From contig NZ_BSUO01000001.1 of the NCBI RefSeq assembly GCF_030161635.1, positions 2,089,199 through 2,153,198 on the forward strand: 64,000 nucleotides of DNA. The letters run 5' to 3'. The notes beneath the pieces are model-generated. The model saw only the letters and a program-made list of their open reading frames with translations, was not told the origin of the DNA and made no database searches. Made by a program: the position numbers and the translations under genes. This DNA comes from Mobilicoccus caccae (GTDB taxonomy: Bacteria; Actinomycetota; Actinomycetes; Actinomycetales; Dermatophilaceae). Shown one piece after another: positions 3,774-14,522 of this stretch; position 1 is the stretch's first letter; each line of letters starts with the position of its first letter.

Positions 3774-4185
3774 GCCACGCAGAGCGTGGCACGGGGAAGG
3801 CCTGCAGCCGCGCCTTGCCGATCGGCTCGGCGCACTGCTCGCACACACCGTAGCTGCCCTCGGCGAGCTTGCCGAGCGCGAGCCGGGACTGCTCCAGCAG
3901 GGTCCGCGAATGACGGGCCAGCGTGAGTTCTTGCTCCCGCTCGGCGACCTTGCCACCGGCGTCGGCCGTGTCGTCACCGGCGCCGCCGCCGTCGTTCTGC
4001 ATCAACTCGACGAGATCGGCCTCGGTCATCTCCACCTCGGCCGCGATCCTCGCGATCTCGGCATGGAGCTCGGCCTGGACCGCCTCGATCTCCTCGGCCG
4101 TCCAGGCCTGCTCACCGTCACGGACCGGCGGGGTCCCGGGTCCGGCGCCGGAGCTCTCCGGCACCGACGTGCTCACACTGGTCAT
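3746..4185 (-). CDS. DksA/TraR C4-type zinc finger protein (apparent frameshift)
   Basis: The N-terminal half is a coiled coil (EIEAVQAELHAEIARIAAEVE) followed by the DksA/TraR zinc finger, beginning YGVCEQCAEPIGKARLQAFP. The reading frame breaks at the G run 3793-3796. One extra base there restores the second Cys pair ([10 protein letters not shown]) and a TGA at 3746-3748, giving 146 residues, a normal length. Members of this family can bind RNA polymerase; this gene sits between divIVA and lspA as in many actinobacteria. Start is the ATG at 4183-4185 or the adjacent GTG at 4186-4188. The break is probably a sequence error. Confidence 0.85.
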
Positions 4186-4204
4186 CACTCGTCCGATCCA
4201 CGGG

Positions 4205-4240
4205 CCTGCACCACGACAGCGGCTCGTGTCGTGGTGCAGG
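4205..4240 (-). terminator. hairpin terminator downstream of divIVA
   Basis: A perfect 14-bp stem (4205-4218 with 4227-4240) and an 8-base loop lies 47 bases beyond the divIVA stop and just before the DksA/TraR gene. There is no T-run on the minus strand, so termination may be partial or factor-assisted. Confidence 0.6.
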
Positions 4241-4286
4241 AAAGGATAGGGCTCACCGGCCCCCGGCGTCGCCCGGACCCGCCCCC

Positions 4287-5459
4287 TCAGAACTGAGGCT
4301 GCTCGACGCGTTCCTCCGAGCGCTCGGACTCCTCGGATCCGTGCTCCTGACCGGCCTGGTGGTCGTGCTGGTGGTGCTGGTCGGTCGCAGGCTCGTGCGC
4401 GTCGTCGGCGGCCATCGCGCCGTCGGGCAGGTCGCCCGGGCGCACCGACCCGCCGTCGGGCAGCCCGTGCAGGTGCGACTCGATGAACGAGGTCAGCCTG
4501 GTGCGGTAGTCGCCCTCGTAGGCCGCGAGCTCGCGGATCTTGGTGTCGTAGGACCCGCGACGCCGCTCGAGGTCGGAGAGGACCTCCTCGCGGCGGGACT
4601 CGGCCTCTCCGACGAGCTGCGCCGAGGTCTCGCGCGCCGTGGTGACGAGGCGCTCGTGCTCCTCCCGGCCCGTGGTGAGGAGGCGGTCGTGCTCGGCCTG
4701 CCCGGTGCGGACCAGCTCGTCGTGGCGGGCCTGGGCGGTGCCGACCAGCTCTTCGTGCCGCGCCTCGGCGGTCTCGATGAGCTCCTTGTTGCGGGCCTCA
4801 CCGGTCTGGACCAGCTCGTCGTGGCGGGCCTGACCCGTCTGCACCAGCTCGTCGTGGCGGGCCTGACCGGTCTCGACGAGTTCGGCGTGCTTGGCCCGAC
4901 CCTCCTCGAGCAGGGAGTCGCGCTCGGTGGTGCCCTCGCGGACGAGGCGATCGTGCTCGGTGCGTCCCTGGTCGACGTACTCGTCGTGGACCTTCTGCGC
5001 CAGCGCGATGACACCCGCGGCGTCCTGCACCGAGTCACCGCTCTCACCGGCGAGCTTGACCGGCGCCTGCGTCTGCTGCGCCTTCGGAGCGGCCTCGTCG
5101 TCGGACTCACCGGCGGCCGCGATCGCGGCCTCCCGCTCGGCGGCGGCCTTCTCGGCCGCCTCGATGCGCGCCTGCGCCTCCCGCTCGGCCTGCTCGGCAC
5201 GCGCCAGCGCGGCCTCGATGCGTGCGGCGGCCTCCTGCTCGGCCTCGGCGGACTCCTCGCCACCGGCCGTCTGCCCGATCGCGCCGGCGGGCCCACCGAC
5301 GGCGGCGGAGCGTCGCAGATCGGTGTTCTCGCCCGCGAGGCGTCGCAACTCGACGACGACCTCATCGAGGAAGTCGTCGACCTCCTGCTCGTCGTAACCA
5401 CGCCTGAACTGCGTCGCGGTGAAGTGCTTGTTCAGAACGTCCTCGGGGGTGAGCGGCAT
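4287..5459 (-). CDS. divIVA: DivIVA/Wag31-type polar growth protein with hendecad repeats
   Basis: DivIVA marks poles and septa and recruits growth machinery in actinobacteria. The start MPLTPEDVLNKHF at 5457-5459 opens the conserved membrane-binding domain, which continues with FRRGYDEQEVDDFLDEVV (residues 18-35). After an Ala/Glu-rich linker (about 68-120), residues 158-300 are 13 consecutive 11-residue repeats with consensus H-D-E-L-V-x-T-G-x-A-R. The C-terminus is acidic and His-rich (AHEPATDQHHQHDHQAG). At 390 residues it is longer than Wag31. The regular hendecads predict a long, nearly straight coiled coil. It lies upstream of the DksA/TraR gene but is separated by a hairpin, and an accessory insertion separates it from yggT/sepF. 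Confidence 0.95.
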   Translation of the reverse strand: MPLTPEDVLNKHFTATQFRRGYDEQEVDDFLDEVVVELRRLAGENTDLRRSAAVGGPAGAIGQTAGGEESAEAEQEAAARIEAALARAEQAEREAQARIEAAEKAAAEREAAIAAAGESDDEAAPKAQQTQAPVKLAGESGDSVQDAAGVIALAQKVHDEYVDQGRTEHDRLVREGTTERDSLLEEGRAKHAELVETGQARHDELVQTGQARHDELVQTGEARNKELIETAEARHEELVGTAQARHDELVRTGQAEHDRLLTTGREEHERLVTTARETSAQLVGEAESRREEVLSDLERRRGSYDTKIRELAAYEGDYRTRLTSFIESHLHGLPDGGSVRPGDLPDGAMAADDAHEPATDQHHQHDHQAGQEHGSEESERSEERVEQPQF

Positions 5460-5629
5460 GGTGAACCCTTTGATCGCGCCGGTGTATCCACCACCAGAGT
5501 AACGGAATTCGGGCGATTCGCCGAGCCCACATTTTCGACGACGTAGCAGGTGAGAGCGCCTTTGCAGAACATGCGTCCAGGTCGGACGCCCGTGTTCGAC
5601 GCTTCTGAGCACGACGCGATCGAGAAACC

Positions 5630-5638
5630 TGTGGACAA
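5630..5638 (-). promoter_or_regulatory. single DnaA-box-like 9-mer
   Basis: The minus strand reads TTGTCCACA, identical to the consensus DnaA box of high-GC actinobacteria. It is isolated, so it is not an origin; chance occurrence is possible. Confidence 0.25.
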
Positions 5639-5725
5639 CTCACCGCACCTGCCGAGGCGCACTCGCACGTCGCTCAGTGCGCTCGAGGGGCCCGCCGGAC
5701 CGGCGATCCGAGAGCCGGCTCGCGG

Positions 5726-5745
5726 GACGTAGCGCAGTTTCGACG
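5726..5745 (-). repeat. 20-bp dispersed repeat, copy 1 (inverted)
   Basis: The minus strand matches copies 2 and 3 exactly over 20 bases (core GAAACTGCGCTACGTC). It faces copy 2 across an 82-base spacer. Confidence 0.7.
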
Positions 5746-5827
5746 TCCTCGGAGAGGCCGCTTCTGCGGTCGCTGTGCGACATCGCAGGTCAGAAGGGTG
5801 CCCCCAAACCGTGTGGCGCGAGGAGTA

Positions 5828-5847
5828 CGTCGAAACTGCGCTACGTC
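5828..5847 (+). repeat. 20-bp dispersed repeat, copy 2
   Basis: Exact 20-base match to copy 3 at 12271-12290 on the same strand, and inverted relative to copy 1. It lies 20 bases from the end of the FG-GAP-like gene. Confidence 0.7.
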
Positions 5848-5867
5848 GTGGGTCACCCCGCCTCCGC

Positions 5868-6767
5868 TCAGCGGGGGCAGCCCACCGGGGTGACCTTGTC
5901 CCGGCCCTCGAGCCGGCCGCCGCTGAGGGTCTTGCCGACGAGCGCCGCGGTGGTGCTCGTACACGTCAGGCCCGTCTTCGACGTCCGGAAGGTCATGACG
6001 AGGTCGCGACGGCCGTCCCTGTCGATGTCGACCATGCGGTGACGCAGGGGGACGGCCTTCTTCGGTCCGAACCGGAACGTGCGCCGGTCGAGGCGGTCCG
6101 CCCGAAGATAGGGCGTGCTCTTGAGCGCGACCGTGACCTCTCCGCGGCCGATGCGCACCTGGTTGTGGCCGCGCCCGGGCACGATGTCGATCGGGGCGTA
6201 GAGGAAGCAGTCACCGATCGTCACGGACACGTGGTTGGGGGTGCTGTTGCCCAACGTGACCGCGGCGGGCCCCCGCGCCAGCGGACGACGCGCCGCGGCC
6301 ACCGGCACGAGGTAGCGGCCCCGGTTGCTCAGCGTCACCGTGGCCGTCGAGGGTGCCCCGCGCGGCAGCGTCACGAGCGCGGGCAACCTCGGGATGACGA
6401 TCGCCTTGCGGGCGACGACGTCGACCGTGCTCCACGGGTTGCCGTCGACGGGTGCGGACCTGGCCATGATGAACTCGGTCGCATAGTCGGACGTCGCCGG
6501 GGAGTCGTTGAAGACCTCGAGCCCCGCCTCGAAGCGGATGCCGTCGCGGCACGCCGAGACGACGTCGAGCACACGGCCGTCGAGGTTCTGCCAGCCCGCG
6601 TGAGCTGCCGGCGCATCGGCGATCCCCAGGACCGTCGACCCCGTCAACGCGCCGATCGCGACGACGCTCAAGGTCAGCGGTCGGCGGCGCGACGTGGCTC
6701 GCCGGCGACCCGGGGCCACGCCGGGTCCGGTCGGGTGTGGGCGACGCGGGTCGGCGATCGGGTGCAT
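5868..6767 (-). CDS. secreted protein with FG-GAP-like calcium-binding motif
   Basis: I do not recognise a named family. The 299-residue product starts at ATG 6765-6767 with a basic N-terminus (RRRATSRRRPLTLSVV), a hydrophobic stretch and a likely AHA signal-peptidase site near residue 55. The mature part contains the motif DIDRDGRRDLVMTF near its C-terminus, like the DxDxDGxxD loops of FG-GAP/VCBS repeats. The last residues hold two Cys. It is transcribed divergently from the cyclase gene and ends 20 bases from repeat copy 2. The open frame continues upstream antisense to the cyclase gene, but the signal peptide fixes the start. Likely exported; function unknown. Confidence 0.7.
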   Translation of the reverse strand: MHPIADPRRPHPTGPGVAPGRRRATSRRRPLTLSVVAIGALTGSTVLGIADAPAAHAGWQNLDGRVLDVVSACRDGIRFEAGLEVFNDSPATSDYATEFIMARSAPVDGNPWSTVDVVARKAIVIPRLPALVTLPRGAPSTATVTLSNRGRYLVPVAAARRPLARGPAAVTLGNSTPNHVSVTIGDCFLYAPIDIVPGRGHNQVRIGRGEVTVALKSTPYLRADRLDRRTFRFGPKKAVPLRHRMVDIDRDGRRDLVMTFRTSKTGLTCTSTTAALVGKTLSGGRLEGRDKVTPVGCPR

Positions 6768-6914
6768 GGCAGGAACTCCTCGGCGGCGGCCGGATCGACC
6801 GCCCGAATCGTCGCGGGTGCGACTCCTGTCAGCGTCGACCCGGCGCCCTCGACGGAGCAATGGTTGTGTCGTCCGGGGAACACTGCGGGCGTCGGCCTCC
6901 CGACACACTGAAGT

Positions 6915-9900
6915 GTGACGACGTCGTCTTCGGGCCGTGGGCCCGACCTGCCGCCCGACGTGGGGGTGGTCCTCCAGGCCGACCTGGTGGGCTTCACCCC
7001 GCTCGCGGCTGCGATGAGCCGCTCGGGCCAGCGTGGGATCGAACGTCTGCATGCCCTGCTCGACGGCACGTTCGCCGCGATGACCTGCGCCGTCGAGGCC
7101 CGTGGCGGCCGGGTCGTGACCTTCGCCGGGGACGCGCTCACCGCGGTGTTCACCGGCGGCCGACTGGCCATGACCCGAGCGGACGCGCTCGAGGCCTCCC
7201 GCGACCTCCTCGCCGTACGCGATCCGACCTGGCCGCAGGAGCACGGCAGCCCGATCTTCCGGGTCGGGTTGGGCAGCGGGCGGCTCCGCCTCGACGAGCT
7301 CGATCTCGATCTCGAACGGTCGGACAGGCCGTGGATGCGTGCGCGGGCCCCGACGCCCGGCGACGATCCCACCTCGCTGCGCGGGCTCGTCGTCCTCACC
7401 GGGCCGGCCGTCGAGGCCGCGGGAGTGGCCGTGAGGCGTGCGGAGGTCGGGCGTGGCCTCGCCTCCTGGACCCCGCAGGCCGTGATGCCGGCCGACCGGA
7501 GCATCCCGGTGCCTCCCACGGATCCGTCGATGCGCGCCCACCATCGCGTCGTCACGACCGTCTTCGTCCACGTCGGGTGCTGCGCCGGCGGGCTGCGGCG
7601 AGCACGCTCCGTCCTCGACGAGGCGGCCCGGATCGTCGCCCGTCGCCACGGCGACCTGCGCCAGATCGAGGGTCGCGGCGAGGACTTCGTCCTCGTGCTC
7701 GGGTTCGGCGCTCCCCGAAGCCACGCCGACGACGTCGTCCATGCGGTCGCGTGCGCCCACGACCTGCTCGTCCTGGGACACGACTCCGGCCTGGCCACGC
7801 GCGCGGGGATCGCCACCGGTGAGACCTTCTGCGCCGAGCTCGGTGGGCCGGGGCATCGGGAGTACGTCGTCGTCGGCGACTCGGTCAACCACGCCGCCCG
7901 CCTGGCGCAGAGCGCCTCCGCCGGTGAGGTACGTATCGATGCGGCGACCGCGCGGGGCTGCCGCGGGCGCGAGGGATTGTCGACGCGGGCCCTGGGCGTG
8001 CTGCCACTCAAGGGGCGAGCGGGGCAGGTGGCCTACGCGGTGGACTCCGACGTCGTCGACCCCGGCCACGCCACCGACGGGCTCGGCCTTCTCGAACCCG
8101 GCACACCACCGCCTCGGTCGGTCGGCCGGGACACCGAGATCGCCCACCTGCGCGACCTCACCGCGCTCGATCGCGACGGCCCGGGGCGCGTCGTCCTGGT
8201 GACCGGTGAGCCGGGCATCGGCACCTCCCATCTGCTGCGTCTCCTGCGCCCACACCTGAGCGGGCCCGTCGCCGTCGGCGCCGGCAGTTCGGTGCAGGCA
8301 CGGACGCCCTACCTGCCCTGGCGCAGCGTCTGGCGGGAGCCGCACATCGGCGGTGCGGAGGGGGCGACGGCGAGCCTGCCCGACGTCGACCGCGAGCTGG
8401 CACCGCTGCTCGCCACCGCCCTGGGGATCCCGACCCCCGACACCGACGCGACGCGACACCTGTCGCCGGCGGACCGGGCCGGAGCGACCCGGCGGCTGCT
8501 CGTGGACCTGCTGCGGCGGGCCTGCCGCGTCCACCGGCGCCTGACGATCCTCATGGACGACGCCGACGGGCTCGATGAGTTGTCCGGCCGGCTCCTCACC
8601 GACGTCGCGCGCCTGTCGACGACCCACCCGCTCGTGCTCGTCGTGGCCGCTCGTGGCCCCGTGACCTGGCTCGATGCTCCGGGGATCGAGGTCGCCAGGT
8701 CGGATCTGGGGCCTCTGGATCGGCGCGCCGCGCGGCACCTGGCGGCCGAGCTCCTCGGAGCAGGCCACCCCCGGATCGAGGCCGTGGCCACCCGCAGCGG
8801 CGGCAATCCGCTGTTCCTTCACCACCTCGCGCACTGGACCCTCGATCGCGACGGCGGCATCCGGGAGGAGCGCGACGCCGACACAGACCCGCCCGACGGG
8901 ATGCCCGAGGACGAGCCGCTGCCCGAGGACGTCCGGCGAGTGGTGCTGTCCCGCCTCGACAACCTGGGACCGGGCCGGCAGTCCCTCGTCCACGCCGCCG
9001 CCGTCGCGGGCCACACCGGCTCGGTCACCGTGCTGAGCGCCTGCGCCCGCGCCGCGGGAATCCCGTTGAGTCCCGAGCACGTCGAGGGCAGCGAGCACGG
9101 CGACGCGACCTCCGACGCGGGCTGGCCGGGTGCGCTGCGTGGGCTCATCGAGCGCCGGGGCGATGCGACGTTCGCATTCACCGACCCGCTGGTCCACGAC
9201 GTGGCCTACGCGACGATCAGCCTCGCCGTGCGGTCCCGCCTGCACGAAGTCGCGGCCCGCACCCTCGAACAGCAGGGGTCGGCGCCACAGGACGAGGAGC
9301 CCGCCCGCGTCGAGTTGCTCGCCCACCACTACGGGCGCTCGAACGACCTGGCCGGACAACGGCGGTGGATCGGTGCGGCCGCACGGATCGCCGAGCGCGA
9401 CTACGCCACCGACACCGCCCTCGCCCACCTGCGCCGGCTCGTCGCGATCGAGCGGGAGGACGCCGCGCGCGCCGACCTCTGGATCCGGCAGGCGGCGATC
9501 CTGGCTCTGCTGGGCCGACGCCCGCAGGCGCAGGCCCTGCTCGAACGCGCCCTACTCGCCGCCGCGGCAGCAGCCGGATCACCCGCGGTCTCGACCGGCC
9601 CGGTCGCTGTGTCGGCCGCCCGCGCGCGGCGCGACCTCGGCGCCCTCCTCCTGCCGACGACGCGGTTCGAGGACGCGATCGTGCTGCTGGCCACGGCGGC
9701 GGACGAACTCGAGGCGGGAGGAGACCTCGAGGGTGCGGCACTCGCCCTGGACCGGCTCGCCTTCGGGCATCTGGATCACGGAGATCCGGTGACGGCGCGG
9801 TCGGTCGCGCGGCACCAGCGTGACCTGGCCGACCACCTCGGCAGTGACGCGCTCGTGGCCGCCGCACTGTCGAATCTCGCGCTCACGGCTCTCGCGGCCG

Positions 9901-10502
9901 GAGCCTCGCAGCGGGCGCTGGAACTCAGCCGGGAGGCGCACCGTCGTGCGCTGCTCAGCCGTGACCGGCGCCTGCTCGTCCACACGGGCAACGACCTCGC
10001 GGGGCGTCTGCTCGAACACGGTGAGCCCGGTGCCGCGGCGGCCTGCGTCGAGGAGGCGCTACGGACGGCCCGCTCGATCGGATACCGCTCGGCCGAGGCG
10101 GCGCTGCGCGGCAATCTCGGCGAGCTGCACCGTCTCTGCGGCGATCCGCACACGGCGACGACGCTCGTCACGCGCGGGCTGCGCCAGGCGCTCGACCTCG
10201 AGGACTGCCCGACGGTCGCACGCTGCATCGTCAACCTCGCCCTGTGCCGCCTCGACGCCGGCGACGCCGTCGCGCCGTCGCTGGTGAGGCGGGTGGCGCG
10301 GATCGCCGTCGACCTCGGTCAACCCGCCTGCGCACAGGAGGCGCACATCGCGGCCGAGCAGGAGGGTCCGGTGGGCCCCGCTCTCGCCGGTGTGCGTCTG
10401 CCCACTCCTGTCGACCTCGCAGACCCTCCGTCCCCGGCCACGATCCTGGCCCTGGTGGACGCGGCCGAGCGGCTCGCCGCGGACCGGACCCGCGCCGACT
10501 GA
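6915..10502 (+). CDS. double class III nucleotide cyclase / AAA-type NTPase / TPR regulator
   Basis: This 1195-residue protein has the domain order cyclase 1 (about 16-180), cyclase 2 (about 210-355), a STAND/AAA_16-like NTPase (about 395-700) and a helical TPR-like C-terminus (about 790-1180), as in mammalian soluble adenylyl cyclase. Cyclase 1 keeps both metal aspartates (Asp23 in ADLVGFT, Asp73 in FAGDAL) but lacks the catalytic Asn/Arg (Glu167, Val171). Cyclase 2 keeps Asn325 and Arg329 (GDSVNHAAR) but has His219 and Glu256 at the metal positions. They could form one composite site. Glu252 sits where adenylyl cyclases usually have Lys, so ATP versus GTP is uncertain. The P-loop reads GEPGIGTSHLL, with Thr437 for the Walker A lysine. 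The GTG start at 6915 is followed by no membrane segment. A Crp-type gene follows after 49 bases. Confidence 0.85.
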   Translation: MTTSSSGRGPDLPPDVGVVLQADLVGFTPLAAAMSRSGQRGIERLHALLDGTFAAMTCAVEARGGRVVTFAGDALTAVFTGGRLAMTRADALEASRDLLAVRDPTWPQEHGSPIFRVGLGSGRLRLDELDLDLERSDRPWMRARAPTPGDDPTSLRGLVVLTGPAVEAAGVAVRRAEVGRGLASWTPQAVMPADRSIPVPPTDPSMRAHHRVVTTVFVHVGCCAGGLRRARSVLDEAARIVARRHGDLRQIEGRGEDFVLVLGFGAPRSHADDVVHAVACAHDLLVLGHDSGLATRAGIATGETFCAELGGPGHREYVVVGDSVNHAARLAQSASAGEVRIDAATARGCRGREGLSTRALGVLPLKGRAGQVAYAVDSDVVDPGHATDGLGLLEPGTPPPRSVGRDTEIAHLRDLTALDRDGPGRVVLVTGEPGIGTSHLLRLLRPHLSGPVAVGAGSSVQARTPYLPWRSVWREPHIGGAEGATASLPDVDRELAPLLATALGIPTPDTDATRHLSPADRAGATRRLLVDLLRRACRVHRRLTILMDDADGLDELSGRLLTDVARLSTTHPLVLVVAARGPVTWLDAPGIEVARSDLGPLDRRAARHLAAELLGAGHPRIEAVATRSGGNPLFLHHLAHWTLDRDGGIREERDADTDPPDGMPEDEPLPEDVRRVVLSRLDNLGPGRQSLVHAAAVAGHTGSVTVLSACARAAGIPLSPEHVEGSEHGDATSDAGWPGALRGLIERRGDATFAFTDPLVHDVAYATISLAVRSRLHEVAARTLEQQGSAPQDEEPARVELLAHHYGRSNDLAGQRRWIGAAARIAERDYATDTALAHLRRLVAIEREDAARADLWIRQAAILALLGRRPQAQALLERALLAAAAAAGSPAVSTGPVAVSAARARRDLGALLLPTTRFEDAIVLLATAADELEAGGDLEGAALALDRLAFGHLDHGDPVTARSVARHQRDLADHLGSDALVAAALSNLALTALAAGASQRALELSREAHRRALLSRDRRLLVHTGNDLAGRLLEHGEPGAAAACVEEALRTARSIGYRSAEAALRGNLGELHRLCGDPHTATTLVTRGLRQALDLEDCPTVARCIVNLALCRLDAGDAVAPSLVRRVARIAVDLGQPACAQEAHIAAEQEGPVGPALAGVRLPTPVDLADPPSPATILALVDAAERLAADRTRAD

Positions 10503-10551
10503 CTCCCCTGGGGTCTGGTGGGATCGCTCCCCCGGGCGGACAATCCGAAGG

Positions 10552-11205
10552 GTGGACTTCCCACTGCTGTCCGCCCTCGACGACGCCGCCCGCAACCGGT
10601 TGCGCGACGTCGGCGCGCGTCGGCACTTCCGCCGCGGTGAGGTCGTCTTCCACGCCGGAGACGCGGCCAACTCCATGCACCTCGTCCTCAGCGGCCACGT
10701 GAGTGTGCAGATCACCACGCGCTCAGGTGATCTGGCGATCCTCACGGTGCTCGGACCGGGGTCGAGCTTCGGGGAGATCGCGCTGCTGCGGGAGGAGTCC
10801 GAGCGCTCGGCGACGGTCTCGGCGCTGGACCCCGTCGAGACCTTCGTGCTCGGCAAGGCCGACTTCCTGCGGCTGCGGGCCACCCTGCCGGCCATGGACC
10901 GCTACCTCGTCGACCAGCTCGCCCGCTACATCCGGCGTCAGGACGCCCGGCTCGTCGAGGCGCTCTACGTCGCCGTCGACAAGCGGGTGCTGCGGCGAGT
11001 CCTGGCGATGGCCCGGCTCTACGGCGACGGTGGGGCCGGGACCGTCATCCCGTTGACGCAGGACGTCTTCGCGAGCATGGCGGGCACCACCCGTCCGACC
11101 GCCAACCAGGTGCTGCGCGCCGCCGAGCGCGACGGGCTCGTGACGATGTCGCGAGGCCGGATCCGCATCGAGGACCCTTCGGGTCTCGCCCGTCGCGCGC
11201 GGTAG
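10552..11205 (+). CDS. Crp/Fnr family transcriptional regulator
   Basis: The 217-residue protein has a cyclic-nucleotide-binding domain (about 1-120) and a Crp-type winged helix-turn-helix (about 150-212, LTQDVFASMAGTTRPTANQVL). The phosphate-binding cassette is intact: FGEIALL at 73-79 and RSAT at 85-88, residues that contact cAMP in Crp proteins. No Fe-S cysteines are present, so it is not an Fnr-like sensor. The start is the GTG at 10552-10554, 49 bases after the cyclase stop, so the pair is probably one transcript. The inference is that the cyclase product activates this regulator. Its targets are unknown; the adjacent secreted genes are candidates. Confidence 0.9.
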   Translation: MDFPLLSALDDAARNRLRDVGARRHFRRGEVVFHAGDAANSMHLVLSGHVSVQITTRSGDLAILTVLGPGSSFGEIALLREESERSATVSALDPVETFVLGKADFLRLRATLPAMDRYLVDQLARYIRRQDARLVEALYVAVDKRVLRRVLAMARLYGDGGAGTVIPLTQDVFASMAGTTRPTANQVLRAAERDGLVTMSRGRIRIEDPSGLARRAR

Positions 11206-11399
11206 CAGGACGGTTCGCGCGGGCGACCCGGCGAGGGCGCCGGCGACATCGTCCGGCCGAGGCACATCGCTGGGGCGTTGTCTGTCAGCTCCCTGACACC
11301 GTAAGCGGATTCGTGACGATGCCGCGGCAGGGGTACACGGCCGCACTGTGAGTGCACACCCGGACGCACCGGGAGTGCACATCACGGGAGGCAACACTC

Positions 11400-12146
11400 A
11401 TGGACACCATCACCCGCCCACGTCTGGCCAAGGCAGGGGCCCTCACCTCGGTCGCCCTCACCGCGCTGCTGGCCGGAGCCACCCTCGGCCCCGCCCCCGC
11501 ACAGGCCCAGGCACTCGGCTCGGCCACGGGTTCCACACCCGCCACGAGCAGCAGCTCGGCCGCCGCGCTCCTGCGCGCCGCCCCGGCACCGCCGCCGCCG
11601 GCACCTCGTCAGCTCAGGCAGCTCCGCCTGGTCGCGGCCCCCGTCCAGATCGTCAACACCTTCAGCAACCTCGCCGTCGACGTCGTCGGGGGCAGCACCG
11701 CCGTCGGCACGGGCACGTGGCTGTGGCCGAGGACGGGCTCCACCGCCCAGCTCGTCGACCTCCTGCCCACCGGTGACGGGTACTACCGCATCCGCGTCCG
11801 CCACTCCGGCCAGTGCCTCATGCTCGACTGGCGCACCGGCGCCTACAAGGACGGGACGAGGATCGTCCAGCACCCCTACTGCAACACCGGCTACACCCCC
11901 TCGCAGTGGCGTCTGCAGCGCATCCCGACGAAATCCGTCGTCAACGGCGTCACCGTCCCCGGATCGACCTACATGCGACTCATCAACCGGAAGACGGGGA
12001 AGTGCCTCGACGCCAACAACCCCCGCGGCTACACCCCGCCTGAACGAGCTGCGATCCAGCAGTACCGCTGCCTGCCGACGGCCGGCCGCTTCGGCGGAAA
12101 CCAGTCGTGGGACATCCTGCGTCACGGCCAGAACCGCGCCGACTGA
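11400..12146 (+). CDS. secreted ricin-type beta-trefoil lectin-like protein
   Basis: The 248-residue protein begins at ATG 11400-11402 after a GGGAGG ribosome-binding sequence. Residues 1-36 form a signal peptide ending near AQAQA. A Ser/Ala/Pro-rich linker follows (about 37-85). The C-terminal 160 residues resemble the RICIN fold: a YYRIRVRHSGQCLMLD block, a QWRL turn, then YMRLINRKTGKCLDANN and NQSWDI. There is no attached hydrolase domain, so it may be a free carbohydrate-binding protein. It is the third gene of the inserted region, 194 bases after the Crp gene, and is followed by a hairpin. The sugar ligand is not predictable. Confidence 0.8.
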   Translation: MDTITRPRLAKAGALTSVALTALLAGATLGPAPAQAQALGSATGSTPATSSSSAAALLRAAPAPPPPAPRQLRQLRLVAAPVQIVNTFSNLAVDVVGGSTAVGTGTWLWPRTGSTAQLVDLLPTGDGYYRIRVRHSGQCLMLDWRTGAYKDGTRIVQHPYCNTGYTPSQWRLQRIPTKSVVNGVTVPGSTYMRLINRKTGKCLDANNPRGYTPPERAAIQQYRCLPTAGRFGGNQSWDILRHGQNRAD

Positions 12147-12216
12147 CACAAAGACCGATCTGCCGGGCACCGGGAGGCCGACACCGGGCACAAGCCATGT
12201 GCCGACCTTCCCACCC

Positions 12217-12253
12217 ACGGGGTGCGCGCCGCTCATCATGCCGCGCACCCCGT
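12217..12253 (+). terminator. hairpin downstream of lectin gene
   Basis: A perfect 11-bp stem (12217-12227 with 12243-12253) with a 15-base loop, 71 bases after the lectin stop. There is no clear T-run. Confidence 0.45.
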
Positions 12254-12270
12254 CGGCCTGCTCTGGGCAC

Positions 12271-12290
12271 CGTCGAAACTGCGCTACGTC
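12271..12290 (+). repeat. 20-bp dispersed repeat, copy 3
   Basis: Exact 20-base match to copy 2 (same strand) and copy 1 (inverted). It lies at the opposite end of the inserted gene set. Confidence 0.7.
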
Positions 12291-12585
12291 GACCACAGCG
12301 CCGGTGGGGTGTTCCGGCGTGCTGCGCCGCGTCAAGGCGCTCGAGGCCGCCGAGCTCGTCGCCGGCTACCGGGGCGAGGTCGATCCCACGATGGTCGGGG
12401 GTTCACGGTCATCGCGCGTCGACCGGCATCTGCGCGAGACCGCACGCCACATCGAGGAATCGTGGCTCGTCAGAGCCCCGGACGCGCGCGCCGCTCAGGT
12501 CCCGACGCCCGTTCGGGTGACTTCGGGCCAGGCGCGGCGTACCGTCGACAGATGGAGCCGCGCGGCTCTCAAAGGGAGATGGACC

Positions 12586-12717
12586 ATGTCCGACAAGTCA
12601 CCTCGACAGTCGATGTCGAAGAAGAGCACCAAGTCCCTCAAGGAGAAACGGCGCGACAAGAAGGACGCCGCCACGGGCGGCAGCCAGGTCGACCAGGTGG
12701 TGCACACCAAGCGCTGA
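12586..12717 (+). CDS. small Lys-rich basic protein
   Basis: This 43-residue protein (MSDKSPRQSMSKKSTKSLKE...) is dominated by Lys, Ser and Arg. The ATG at 12586-12588 follows an AGGGAG ribosome-binding sequence by about 6 bases. Similar tiny basic proteins are widespread in actinobacteria, to my knowledge without an assigned function. It could bind nucleic acid by charge alone; that is a guess. It precedes a strong bidirectional hairpin and converges on yggT. The frame is open further upstream to GTG 12319, so a longer product is possible. Confidence 0.6.
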   Translation: MSDKSPRQSMSKKSTKSLKEKRRDKKDAATGGSQVDQVVHTKR

Positions 12718-12724
12718 TGTCCCG

Positions 12725-12752
12725 CTGGGAGGCTGCGCACGCAGCCTCCCAG
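12725..12752. terminator. bidirectional hairpin between convergent genes
   Basis: A perfect 12-bp stem (12725-12736 with 12741-12752) and a 4-base loop sit between the small basic gene (plus) and yggT (minus). The position suits termination from both sides. Confidence 0.7.
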
Positions 12753-12766
12753 GACAGCGGAGAGTC

Positions 12767-13063
12767 TCAGACGGTCAGAGCCAGCCTGCTGAGGACGCTG
12801 ATCAGCAACGACAGGCCGATGAACAGCACGATGAACGCGAGGTCCAAGGCGATTCCGCCGAGCCGCAACGGCGGGATGACCTTGCGCAGCGCCTTCAGGG
12901 GCGGATCGGTGAGGGTGTAGATCCCCTCGACGATGACGAGCACGAAACCCGTGGGCCGCCAGTCGCGCGCGAACACCTGGATCCAGTCGACGACGAGACG
13001 CGCGATGAGAACGAACAGGTAGAGGTTGAGAACGGTGACGAGGATCGCGAGCAGAGGTGCCAT
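12767..13063 (-). CDS. YggT family membrane protein
   Basis: The 98-residue protein has two hydrophobic segments, one at the N-terminus (LLAILVTVLNLYLFVLIARLVVDW) and one at the C-terminus, joined by the family-typical TDPPLKALRKVIPPLRLGGI. YggT proteins are conserved next to sepF in Gram-positive dcw clusters; a role in cell-envelope or division processes is suspected but not proven. It starts 21 bases after the sepF stop. Normally divIVA follows immediately; here 7.3 kb of other DNA intervenes. Confidence 0.92.
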   Translation of the reverse strand: MAPLLAILVTVLNLYLFVLIARLVVDWIQVFARDWRPTGFVLVIVEGIYTLTDPPLKALRKVIPPLRLGGIALDLAFIVLFIGLSLLISVLSRLALTV

Positions 13064-13084
13064 GTGGTCCAGTATCGCGGTCGG

Positions 13085-13735
13085 TCAGCTCTGATTGAAA
13101 AGCCCGCGGCGTACACGGGTGCCGTCGCCGTCGCTCGAGGTCACCTCGAGGTTGGCCGGGGACAGCAGGAAAACCTTGTTCGTGACCCGCTCGATCGTGC
13201 CCTGCAGGCCGAACACGAGGCCGGCGGCGAAGTCGACGAGCCGCTTGGCGTCGGCGTCGTCGAGGTCCGACAGGTTCATGATGACCGGGGTGCCCTCACG
13301 GAAGGTCTCGCCGATCTTCTTGGCCTCGTTGTACGTCCGCGGGTGGATCGTGCAGATCCGGTGAACACCTGACACATCCACGTCCTTCACGACCTCACTC
13401 ACCGGGGTACGGCGCGGAAACGGGGTGACTTCCGCGCTGCGCCGCTCCTCCACGGGGGCGAGAGCGACGTGCGACCCGCGACGCTCACGCGCGACGGGTG
13501 CGGGGATCACGGTACCGGTGTCGTGATCCTCCTCCCGGGGCGCCCGGCGCGGCTCGTCACGGACGGCCTCGCGCCGCTCGGTGCGGGGCTCGCGCTCACC
13601 GTCGCGCGCGTCGACGTCCTCGACACGGTGACGTTCGACGACCCGGGGGGCGTCCTCGTCCTCGTAGCGCACCTCGCGGTCCTCCTCGTCGGCCAGACCG
13701 AGGTACACCCAGGCCTTACGCAGTGCTCCAGCCAT
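13085..13735 (-). CDS. sepF: cell division protein SepF
   Basis: SepF anchors FtsZ to the membrane and stabilises the ring. The 216-residue product begins MAGALRKAWVYLGLADEED, the amphipathic membrane anchor. A long charged linker (about 25-110, many E/R) leads to the SepF core: HPRTYNEAKKIGETFREGTPVIMNLSDLDD, then KRLVDFAAGLVFGLQGTIERV and KVFLLSP. The ATG at 13733-13735 is fixed by the anchor helix. It lies between yggS and yggT as expected. Actinobacteria of this type lack FtsA and depend on SepF. Confidence 0.95.
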   Translation of the reverse strand: MAGALRKAWVYLGLADEEDREVRYEDEDAPRVVERHRVEDVDARDGEREPRTERREAVRDEPRRAPREEDHDTGTVIPAPVARERRGSHVALAPVEERRSAEVTPFPRRTPVSEVVKDVDVSGVHRICTIHPRTYNEAKKIGETFREGTPVIMNLSDLDDADAKRLVDFAAGLVFGLQGTIERVTNKVFLLSPANLEVTSSDGDGTRVRRGLFNQS

Positions 13736-13836
13736 CAGTGTGCTCCCACCTGCATGCTCGTTCTCTTGTGTCGGGGACGGCCTCGGGGCCCGCGTGAGGA
13801 CGCGGGTGCGCGAAGTCGGCCGTGTTGGGGCCCACG

Positions 13837-14522
13837 CTAGCGGGCCGGTGGTCGACCGCCCAGGATTGCGGACCCGACACGCACGTGAGTCGCGCCATGG
13901 GCCAGGGCGGCCTCCAGGTCGCCGCTCATCCCGGCCGAGATCCACGTCGCGTCCGGGTGGTCGAGCAGGAGACGTCGGTGCAGGTCGGCGAGCCTGGTGA
14001 AGGCCTCGTCGGGGTCCGCGCCCAGCGGCGCGACCGCCATCACGCCCCGCAGGGTGAGCACGTCGCTGCCTGCGACACGCTCCGCCAGGGCGGGGAGCTG
14101 ATCCGGCGCCGCTCCCCCGCGGCCGTCGCTGTCGACCTCGAGGTCGACCTGCAGGAGCACCTCCAGCTCGCGACCGGCCGCACGCGCCCCCTCTCCAGGG
14201 CCCCGACGAGCTTGACCCGGTCGACCGAGTGGACGACGTCGGCGTAGGCGGCCACCGAGGCGGCCTTGTTGGTCTGCAGTTGCCCGATGAAATGGACCCG
14301 CTCCGGGCGGGATCCGAGCTCCTCGAGTTCGGCCACCTTGGCGGAGGCCTCCTGGTCGCGGTTCTCACCCATGTCGGTGACCCCGAGCTCGACCAGCGAC
14401 GCCACGTCGGAGGCGGGGAAGAACTTGGTGACGACGATGACCGTGGGGTCGGCGCCGGTCGCCGCGATGCGCTCGCGGAGGGCGGTCAGGTTCTGCGCCA
14501 GCTCGGCGCGCCGATCACTCAC
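13837..14522 (-). CDS. yggS: YggS family PLP-binding protein (apparent frameshift)
   Basis: YggS/PLPBP proteins bind pyridoxal phosphate and help balance vitamin B6 and amino acids. The N-terminal half carries the PLP lysine (Lys33 in VIVVTKFFPAS), then GENRDQEA and HFIGQLQTNK. The C-terminal half shows LLQVDLE, GVMAV and the end motif WISAGMSGDLEAALAHGATHVRVGSAILG. The halves are in different frames; one extra base in the C run 14187-14191 joins them into 228 residues. The GTG start at 14520-14522 overlaps the pgeF stop (GTGA). The break is probably a sequencing error. Confidence 0.88.

Follow-up and report, generated by a model that had tools for sequence, protein, structure and literature searches.

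The window analysed here, a stretch of 64,000 nt of Mobilicoccus caccae (NZ_BSUO01000001.1, positions 2,089,199–2,153,198), contains a gene for a cyclase similar to the soluble adenylyl cyclase (sAC) ADCY10, followed by a gene for a Crp-type regulator. The cyclase gene (6915–10502, plus strand, GTG start, 1195 aa; open reading frame (ORF) translation and Pfam) and the Crp gene (10552–11205, plus strand, GTG start, 217 aa; Pfam and alignment) are separated by 49 bases, as had been claimed in the original prediction made from this DNA. The comparison with their relatives indicated that both genes are a conserved pair and probably form one signalling unit, in which one 3',5'-cyclic nucleotide would be made at a composite catalytic site and read by the Crp. 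Taken together, the proposal is stronger than first stated as a gene pair and weaker as an equivalent of ADCY10.

Conservation of the cyclase–Crp pair

An alignment scan of genomes for the near clade returned eight loci, with three close relatives. In Agilicoccus flavus, the Crp gene follows the cyclase gene and the products are 65% (cyclase) and 91% (Crp) identical to those of the window; the same order was found in Kineosphaera limosa, with identities of 41% and 79%, respectively. The third relative, contig L026 of a metagenome-assembled genome (MAG), stops 130 bases past the cyclase match. The adjacency was therefore seen in all three near-clade loci able to show it (the window, A. flavus and K. 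limosa), and the genome search suggested earlier for the same gene pair found it in two further genera, Agilicoccus and Kineosphaera. In Agilicoccus and the MAG, the cyclase likewise starts with GTG at the corresponding position. Among 186 genomes of the family, a close cyclase (E ≤ 1e-150) was present in four and a close Crp (E ≤ 1e-100) in three, all of which had the cyclase; a fifth cyclase match at E 7e-31 was a weaker relative. Three genomes of the same genus were found to be without both the cyclase and the Crp. Among the database matches, cyclase P0011 and Crp P0158 are on contigs of the same length (29906), which may indicate one more pair.

The pair lies in a block of about 7.15 kb (5613–12766), delimited by comparison with relatives, between a divIVA/Wag31-like gene (4287–5612, minus strand) and a yggT-like gene (12767–13063, minus strand), both named by eye. 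These flanking genes belong to a cell-division cluster, the yggT-like gene and sepF lying within 12767–14368. The yggT and divIVA genes were adjacent in 6/6 relatives (three of the same genus, Agilicoccus, Kineosphaera and the MAG), with 43–185 bases between their alignment edges. The cyclase of Agilicoccus, Kineosphaera and the MAG was on a contig other than that of yggT. The simplest reading would be that the whole block was relocated in one piece; its position may also be due to a misassembly, the window genome being 89% complete and in five contigs. That both genes occur together in a patchy manner, and sit at a different site in the window genome, strengthened the earlier idea of a self-contained unit, and the coupling of the cyclase to the Crp gene was borne out in the form of a conserved adjacent pair. 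No report of a cyclase–Crp pair of this kind was found in the literature, a weak negative as subscription papers were poorly covered.

More distant Crps were also found near cyclases. In addition to the near-clade three, 30 homologues from the family at E ≤ 1e-35 in 29 genomes were collected and the surroundings of all 30 were examined. A class III cyclase domain was present on the same strand, some 2 kb upstream, in 21/30 (L113, L114, L118–L122, L124, L155, L157, L158, L160–L164, L166 and L168–L171), and the same profile matched 0/20 control windows of 20 kb taken at round coordinates on contigs that carry a Crp in nine of the genomes. Nine of the 21 cyclases were scanned with Pfam, which detected a receiver domain in 9/9, and ATP-grasp and PGM1_C matches in the gene between cyclase and Crp in two loci scanned. 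These clusters share with the window a related Crp downstream of a class III cyclase and differ in having a receiver-domain cyclase with a single cyclase homology domain. On the Crp tree, three changes were required for four partner groups, which is the minimum, and 0/200 shuffles were as low, a result that near-copies favour. More distant sAC-like genes were seen in genomes G022 and G004 (L172:15251–16927 and L174:5235–8522), close to membrane proteins of the major facilitator superfamily (MFS) type that carry a cyclic nucleoside monophosphate (cNMP)-binding domain, one of them together with a patatin domain. The third distant sAC-like locus (L173) had no MFS-cNMP protein, and such proteins also adjoin Crps without a cyclase (L150 and L159).

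Predicted catalytic site of the cyclase and nucleotide pocket of the Crp

The translation verified the cyclase ORF and the positions of D23, D73, E167, V171, H219, E256, N325 and R329. The C1 domain (residues about 12–190; 6948–7484, plus strand; profile alignment and model) contains the metal aspartates D23 and D73 and the degenerate E167/V171, and the C2 domain (residues about 205–382; 7527–8060, plus strand; Pfam, alignment and model) contains N325 and R329. H219 and E256 had been assigned to the aspartate places of C2; both residues are present, and the pairing of E256 was corrected, as in the profile alignment it matches Lys340 in the FDKG motif that PMC12867704 describes in the β2/β3 loop of human C2. 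Pfam detected AAA_16 (1.7e-16), Guanylate_cyc (4.7e-08, in C2 only) and TPR_12 (2.8e-07) in the protein. The C1 domain of the window had no Pfam match of its own and was recognised from the profile alignment with human sAC and from the structure model; C1 of the relatives was detected by a family profile.

The conservation of these residues was monitored in an alignment of 120 rows, comprising the query and P0002–P0120 from the best 120 of 490 matches; P0001, being 99% identical, was excluded. D23 was Asp in 118/120 (two gaps), D73 was conserved in 119/120, N325 in 117/120 and R329 in 120/120. All four were present together in 114/120 proteins, and the reciprocal Asn/Arg pair in C1 was found in 0/120, which is more than expected by chance and agrees with the shared site proposed from the complementarity of C1 and C2. 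In the model, the tandem domains fold as one pseudo-heterodimer. Together, the conservation, the sAC alignment and the model supported one putative composite C1–C2 site as in ADCY10, which was the best solved match both by profile (A1, E 5.4e-60) and by Foldseek, and which has the same tandem C1–C2 domains, metal aspartates in C1, Asn/Arg in C2 and single composite site.

In ADCY10, an NTPase and then a long helical repeat part come after the cyclase domains. The window protein has an AAA_16/STAND-type NTPase domain (residues 403–576; 8121–8642, plus strand; Pfam and Foldseek) and a TPR array with a fold like MalT domain III (residues about 791–1140; 9285–10334, plus strand; Pfam and model), so that the NTPase core and C-terminal repeat sensor fold of STAND signal-transduction NTPases were both present. 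Its Walker A is degenerate in the alignment (GEPGIGTS; 8205–8228, plus strand), Lys437 being replaced by Thr, also in the Agilicoccus member. The statement that AAA and TPR domains follow as in ADCY10 was not supported as worded, because the P-loop lysine is gone, although both domains were matched. The window protein further differs from ADCY10 in being bacterial and paired with a Crp. The same C1-C2-AAA-TPR architecture is known from bacterial sAC-like class III cyclases, 490 of which passed E ≤ 0.001 in the candidate set that was scored; the near clade differs from these in lying beside a Crp gene and in having Gln/Val base slots, and the window and Agilicoccus proteins also in the Walker A Thr.

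The profile alignment placed Gln250 and Val318 of the window cyclase at the slots of human Lys334 and Thr405, which serve the adenine base according to PMC12867704 and PMC12250328. Similarly, Thr69 and Val171 were at the slots of the bicarbonate residues Lys95 and Arg176, whose replacement in human sAC abolishes the bicarbonate response (PMC12867704). Because of these differences from ADCY10 at both pairs of slots, neither a cAMP product nor a bicarbonate mode is assured from the sequence.

The Crp contains a cNMP-binding domain and a Crp helix-turn-helix (PF00027, 1.5e-23 and PF13545, 4.8e-14, scanned as the longer ORF 10390–11205), which upheld the assignment of a Crp-family gene downstream of the cyclase. 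In E. coli CRP, Gly-Glu...Arg-Ser contact the phosphate and ribose, and Thr and Ser/Asn of the C-helix are at the base. The phosphate/ribose residues were kept in 3/3 sAC-linked Crps. The C-helix base slots in the window Crp are Gln-Asp (Q130, D131), as against Thr-Asn in GlxR (4cyd) and in the GlxR-like protein of the same genome, to which the window Crp is 26% identical. The "intact cyclic-nucleotide pocket" thus stood for its phosphate/ribose part and not for its base-contact slots, and cAMP as the ligand of the Crp is not assured because of the Gln-Asp. These slots varied with the partner, being Gln-Asp in 3/3 sAC-linked Crps, Leu-Ser or Leu-Thr in 21/21 receiver-linked Crps, and Leu-Ser (8/9) or Leu-Gly (1/9) in Crps without a nearby cyclase; Gln-Asp was also present in 7/10 Crps of unknown neighbourhood. 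The window Crp shares with GlxR and mycobacterial CRP the domain order and the Gly-Glu...Arg pocket, and differs from them in these slots and in the recognition helix (TRPTANQV), which has RPT for the RET that is also found in the GlxR-like protein of its own genome.

Promoters, neighbouring genes and a proposed mechanism

The promoter alignment revealed a candidate Crp operator, GTGT-N10-ACAC (6866–6883, plus strand), whose centre is exactly 40.5 bases before the cyclase GTG in three of the four near-clade loci. The longer sequence TGTGTCG-N5-GGAACAC was invariant upstream of the cyclase in the window, Agilicoccus and the MAG. When seven genomes were searched for this longer motif with up to one mismatch, it had one match in the window genome, two each in Agilicoccus and the MAG, and one in one of the three same-genus genomes without the pair, and the reversed control pattern gave one match in the seven genomes. 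The second exact copy in Agilicoccus (L111:3854) lies 97 bases before ORF 3951–4925, which we take to be similar to a tyrosine recombinase. A −10-like hexamer, CACACT (6904–6909, plus strand), is located 5 bases before the cyclase GTG, where CACACT or CAGAAT was found across the loci, in what appears to be a leaderless-type arrangement. A further −10-like hexamer, GACAAT (10539–10544, plus strand), is 7 bases before the crp start and is also present in Agilicoccus. The scan for sigma-70 promoters and terminators gave no matches. By the class II activator position rule known from E. coli CRP, a site near −40.5 is close to the class II position if the mRNA is leaderless, and the position of the candidate operator suggests feedback on the cyclase gene.

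A divergent gene upstream of the cyclase (5868–6767, minus strand) encodes a 299-aa protein that looks secreted by its signal-like start, judged by eye, and has no Pfam match; it was beside the cyclase in 3/3 other near-clade loci, with 73%, 62% and 46% identity. The plus-strand ORF 5775–6911 was considered as an upstream operon gene and rejected, being an antisense frame of a minus-strand gene. Downstream of the pair, a ricin-type β-trefoil lectin with a signal-peptide-like N-terminus, also judged by eye, is encoded (11400–12146, plus strand; Pfam). In Agilicoccus, a lectin that is 70% identical is likewise downstream of the pair, with a second copy behind it.

From these features a mechanism can be proposed, in which a ligand would be sensed by the C-terminal TPR array and relayed through the STAND-like NTPase core that is without the normal P-loop lysine, and its binding would alter the C1–C2 dimer. 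The composite site would then make one 3',5'-cyclic nucleotide, which may be cAMP, and the neighbouring Crp would regulate genes on binding it. Should the transcript begin at the GTG, the nucleotide-bound Crp would activate the cyclase promoter from the class II position near −40.5, resulting in positive feedback, and it would probably control the divergent neighbour too. Linked cyclase and receptor genes are known from two cGMP systems. CgrA of Rhodospirillum centenum is a Crp homologue that is clustered with cyclase-subunit genes and controls them directly in a feed-forward manner; a divergent gene is co-regulated, and the cyclase subunits of that cluster are called non-catalytic (PMC4681086). 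The window shares with it a Crp homologue clustered with cyclase-type genes and a divergent gene, the ligand and the regulation of the window pair being predicted. In Xanthomonas campestris, the class III cyclase XC_0250 is linked to the gene of its cNMP receptor, XC_0249 (PMC3770947), which differs from the Crp in being a diguanylate cyclase and not a transcription factor. By analogy, both cases suggest that linked cyclase and receptor genes can work in the proposed way. A bolder joint claim, possible and rather doubtful as a whole, is that the pair forms a private second-messenger channel, where the cyclase with its altered purine pocket would make not cAMP but cGMP or some further cNMP; a Crp whose base pocket and DNA helix are altered to match would read it without cross-talk with GlxR and would switch on its own cyclase from the class II site, and the cassette would move between genera as a unit, having landed in the cell-division cluster here.

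Alternative explanations and implications

Several observations weigh against the pair as one signalling unit. The near-clade loci number only four, and a Crp scan across the class (394 genomes) added a single genome (G561), whose two Crps (57–58% identity) are on short contigs of 7.2 and 4.1 kb without a cyclase. At ≥65% identity, the protein database contained 34 Crps against two cyclases, near-copies of the queries counted, and many of the close Crps have neighbours that were not known. This surplus may mean that there are Crps without an sAC-like neighbour; it may also be explained by faster divergence of the cyclase together with short contigs. No cyclase was found in the stretch examined around 9/30 distant Crps. 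The operator-like site was not seen upstream of the Kineosphaera cyclase, the longer motif with up to one mismatch was absent from the Kineosphaera genome, and the short motif is expected 0.65 times per window. The hexamer before crp makes a leaderless promoter of its own possible for this gene, so that the pair need not share one transcript. Furthermore, RPT was common to many related Crps and not restricted to the sAC-linked ones, and base slots that are unusual (His and Ala, as read by eye) occur in the receiver-cyclases as well, which weighs against over-reading a co-adaptation of the two pockets.

Other points concern the cyclase itself. Its base slots have the pattern of neither adenylyl (Lys/Asp) nor guanylyl cyclases (Glu/Cys; patterns from PMC7384201), the Walker A residue 437 is Thr in the window protein and P0002 and Lys in 118/120 rows, and a solved class III-like protein that binds ATP exists (6yii). 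The non-canonical base residues and 6yii would fit a nucleotide-binding pseudo-cyclase, in which C1–C2 serves the STAND-TPR part as sensor or scaffold and the ligand of the Crp comes from another cyclase in the cell. Apart from the window cyclase, PF00211 matched one ORF of this genome (L019, 383 aa, motif KTIGD), whose class III cyclase domain would be a candidate for the latter; the ORF adjoining L019 presumably encodes a relative of biotin-protein ligase. We consider a pseudo-cyclase unlikely, since the retention of the four catalytic residues in nearly all relatives while the reciprocal set decayed would be expected only under selection for catalysis. According to PMC12867704, the Asn of human sAC serves product release and the Arg the α-phosphate.

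If the cyclase and the Crp were neighbours by descent only and the Crp answered a general cAMP pool like GlxR, then the few independent near-clade loci, the many close Crps with unknown neighbours and the possible promoter of crp would all be accommodated. The joint patchy presence, the joint block at a different site and the frequent pairing of distant Crps with class III cyclases argue against this, as do the base-contact and recognition-helix residues that set the Crp apart from the GlxR-like protein of the same cell, and such an explanation is quite improbable. PADLOC also matched both proteins to Pycsar models (best E 4e-09 and 6e-16), which could point to a role in anti-phage defence, the cyclase gene being next to that of a cNMP-binding effector. 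Pycsar defence uses a cNMP-gated TIR or membrane effector. The matches were limited to the cyclase and cNMP-binding parts and can be put down to these common domains. In addition, the receptor has a Crp helix-turn-helix and Pfam found no TIR domain, making a defence function very unlikely indeed.

The cyclase and Crp as one signalling unit thus remain the probable reading. Bacteria have many relatives of soluble adenylyl cyclase and, to our knowledge, none of these has an established output. Here, comparative genomics ties one clade of these cyclases to a single receptor gene, so that substrate, ligand and regulon could be addressed jointly with one promoter and two purified proteins. The window cyclase is also a naturally occurring example of a protein that has lost the bicarbonate switch and the P-loop lysine and kept the catalytic residues, and the related Crps are found paired with two quite different cyclases.

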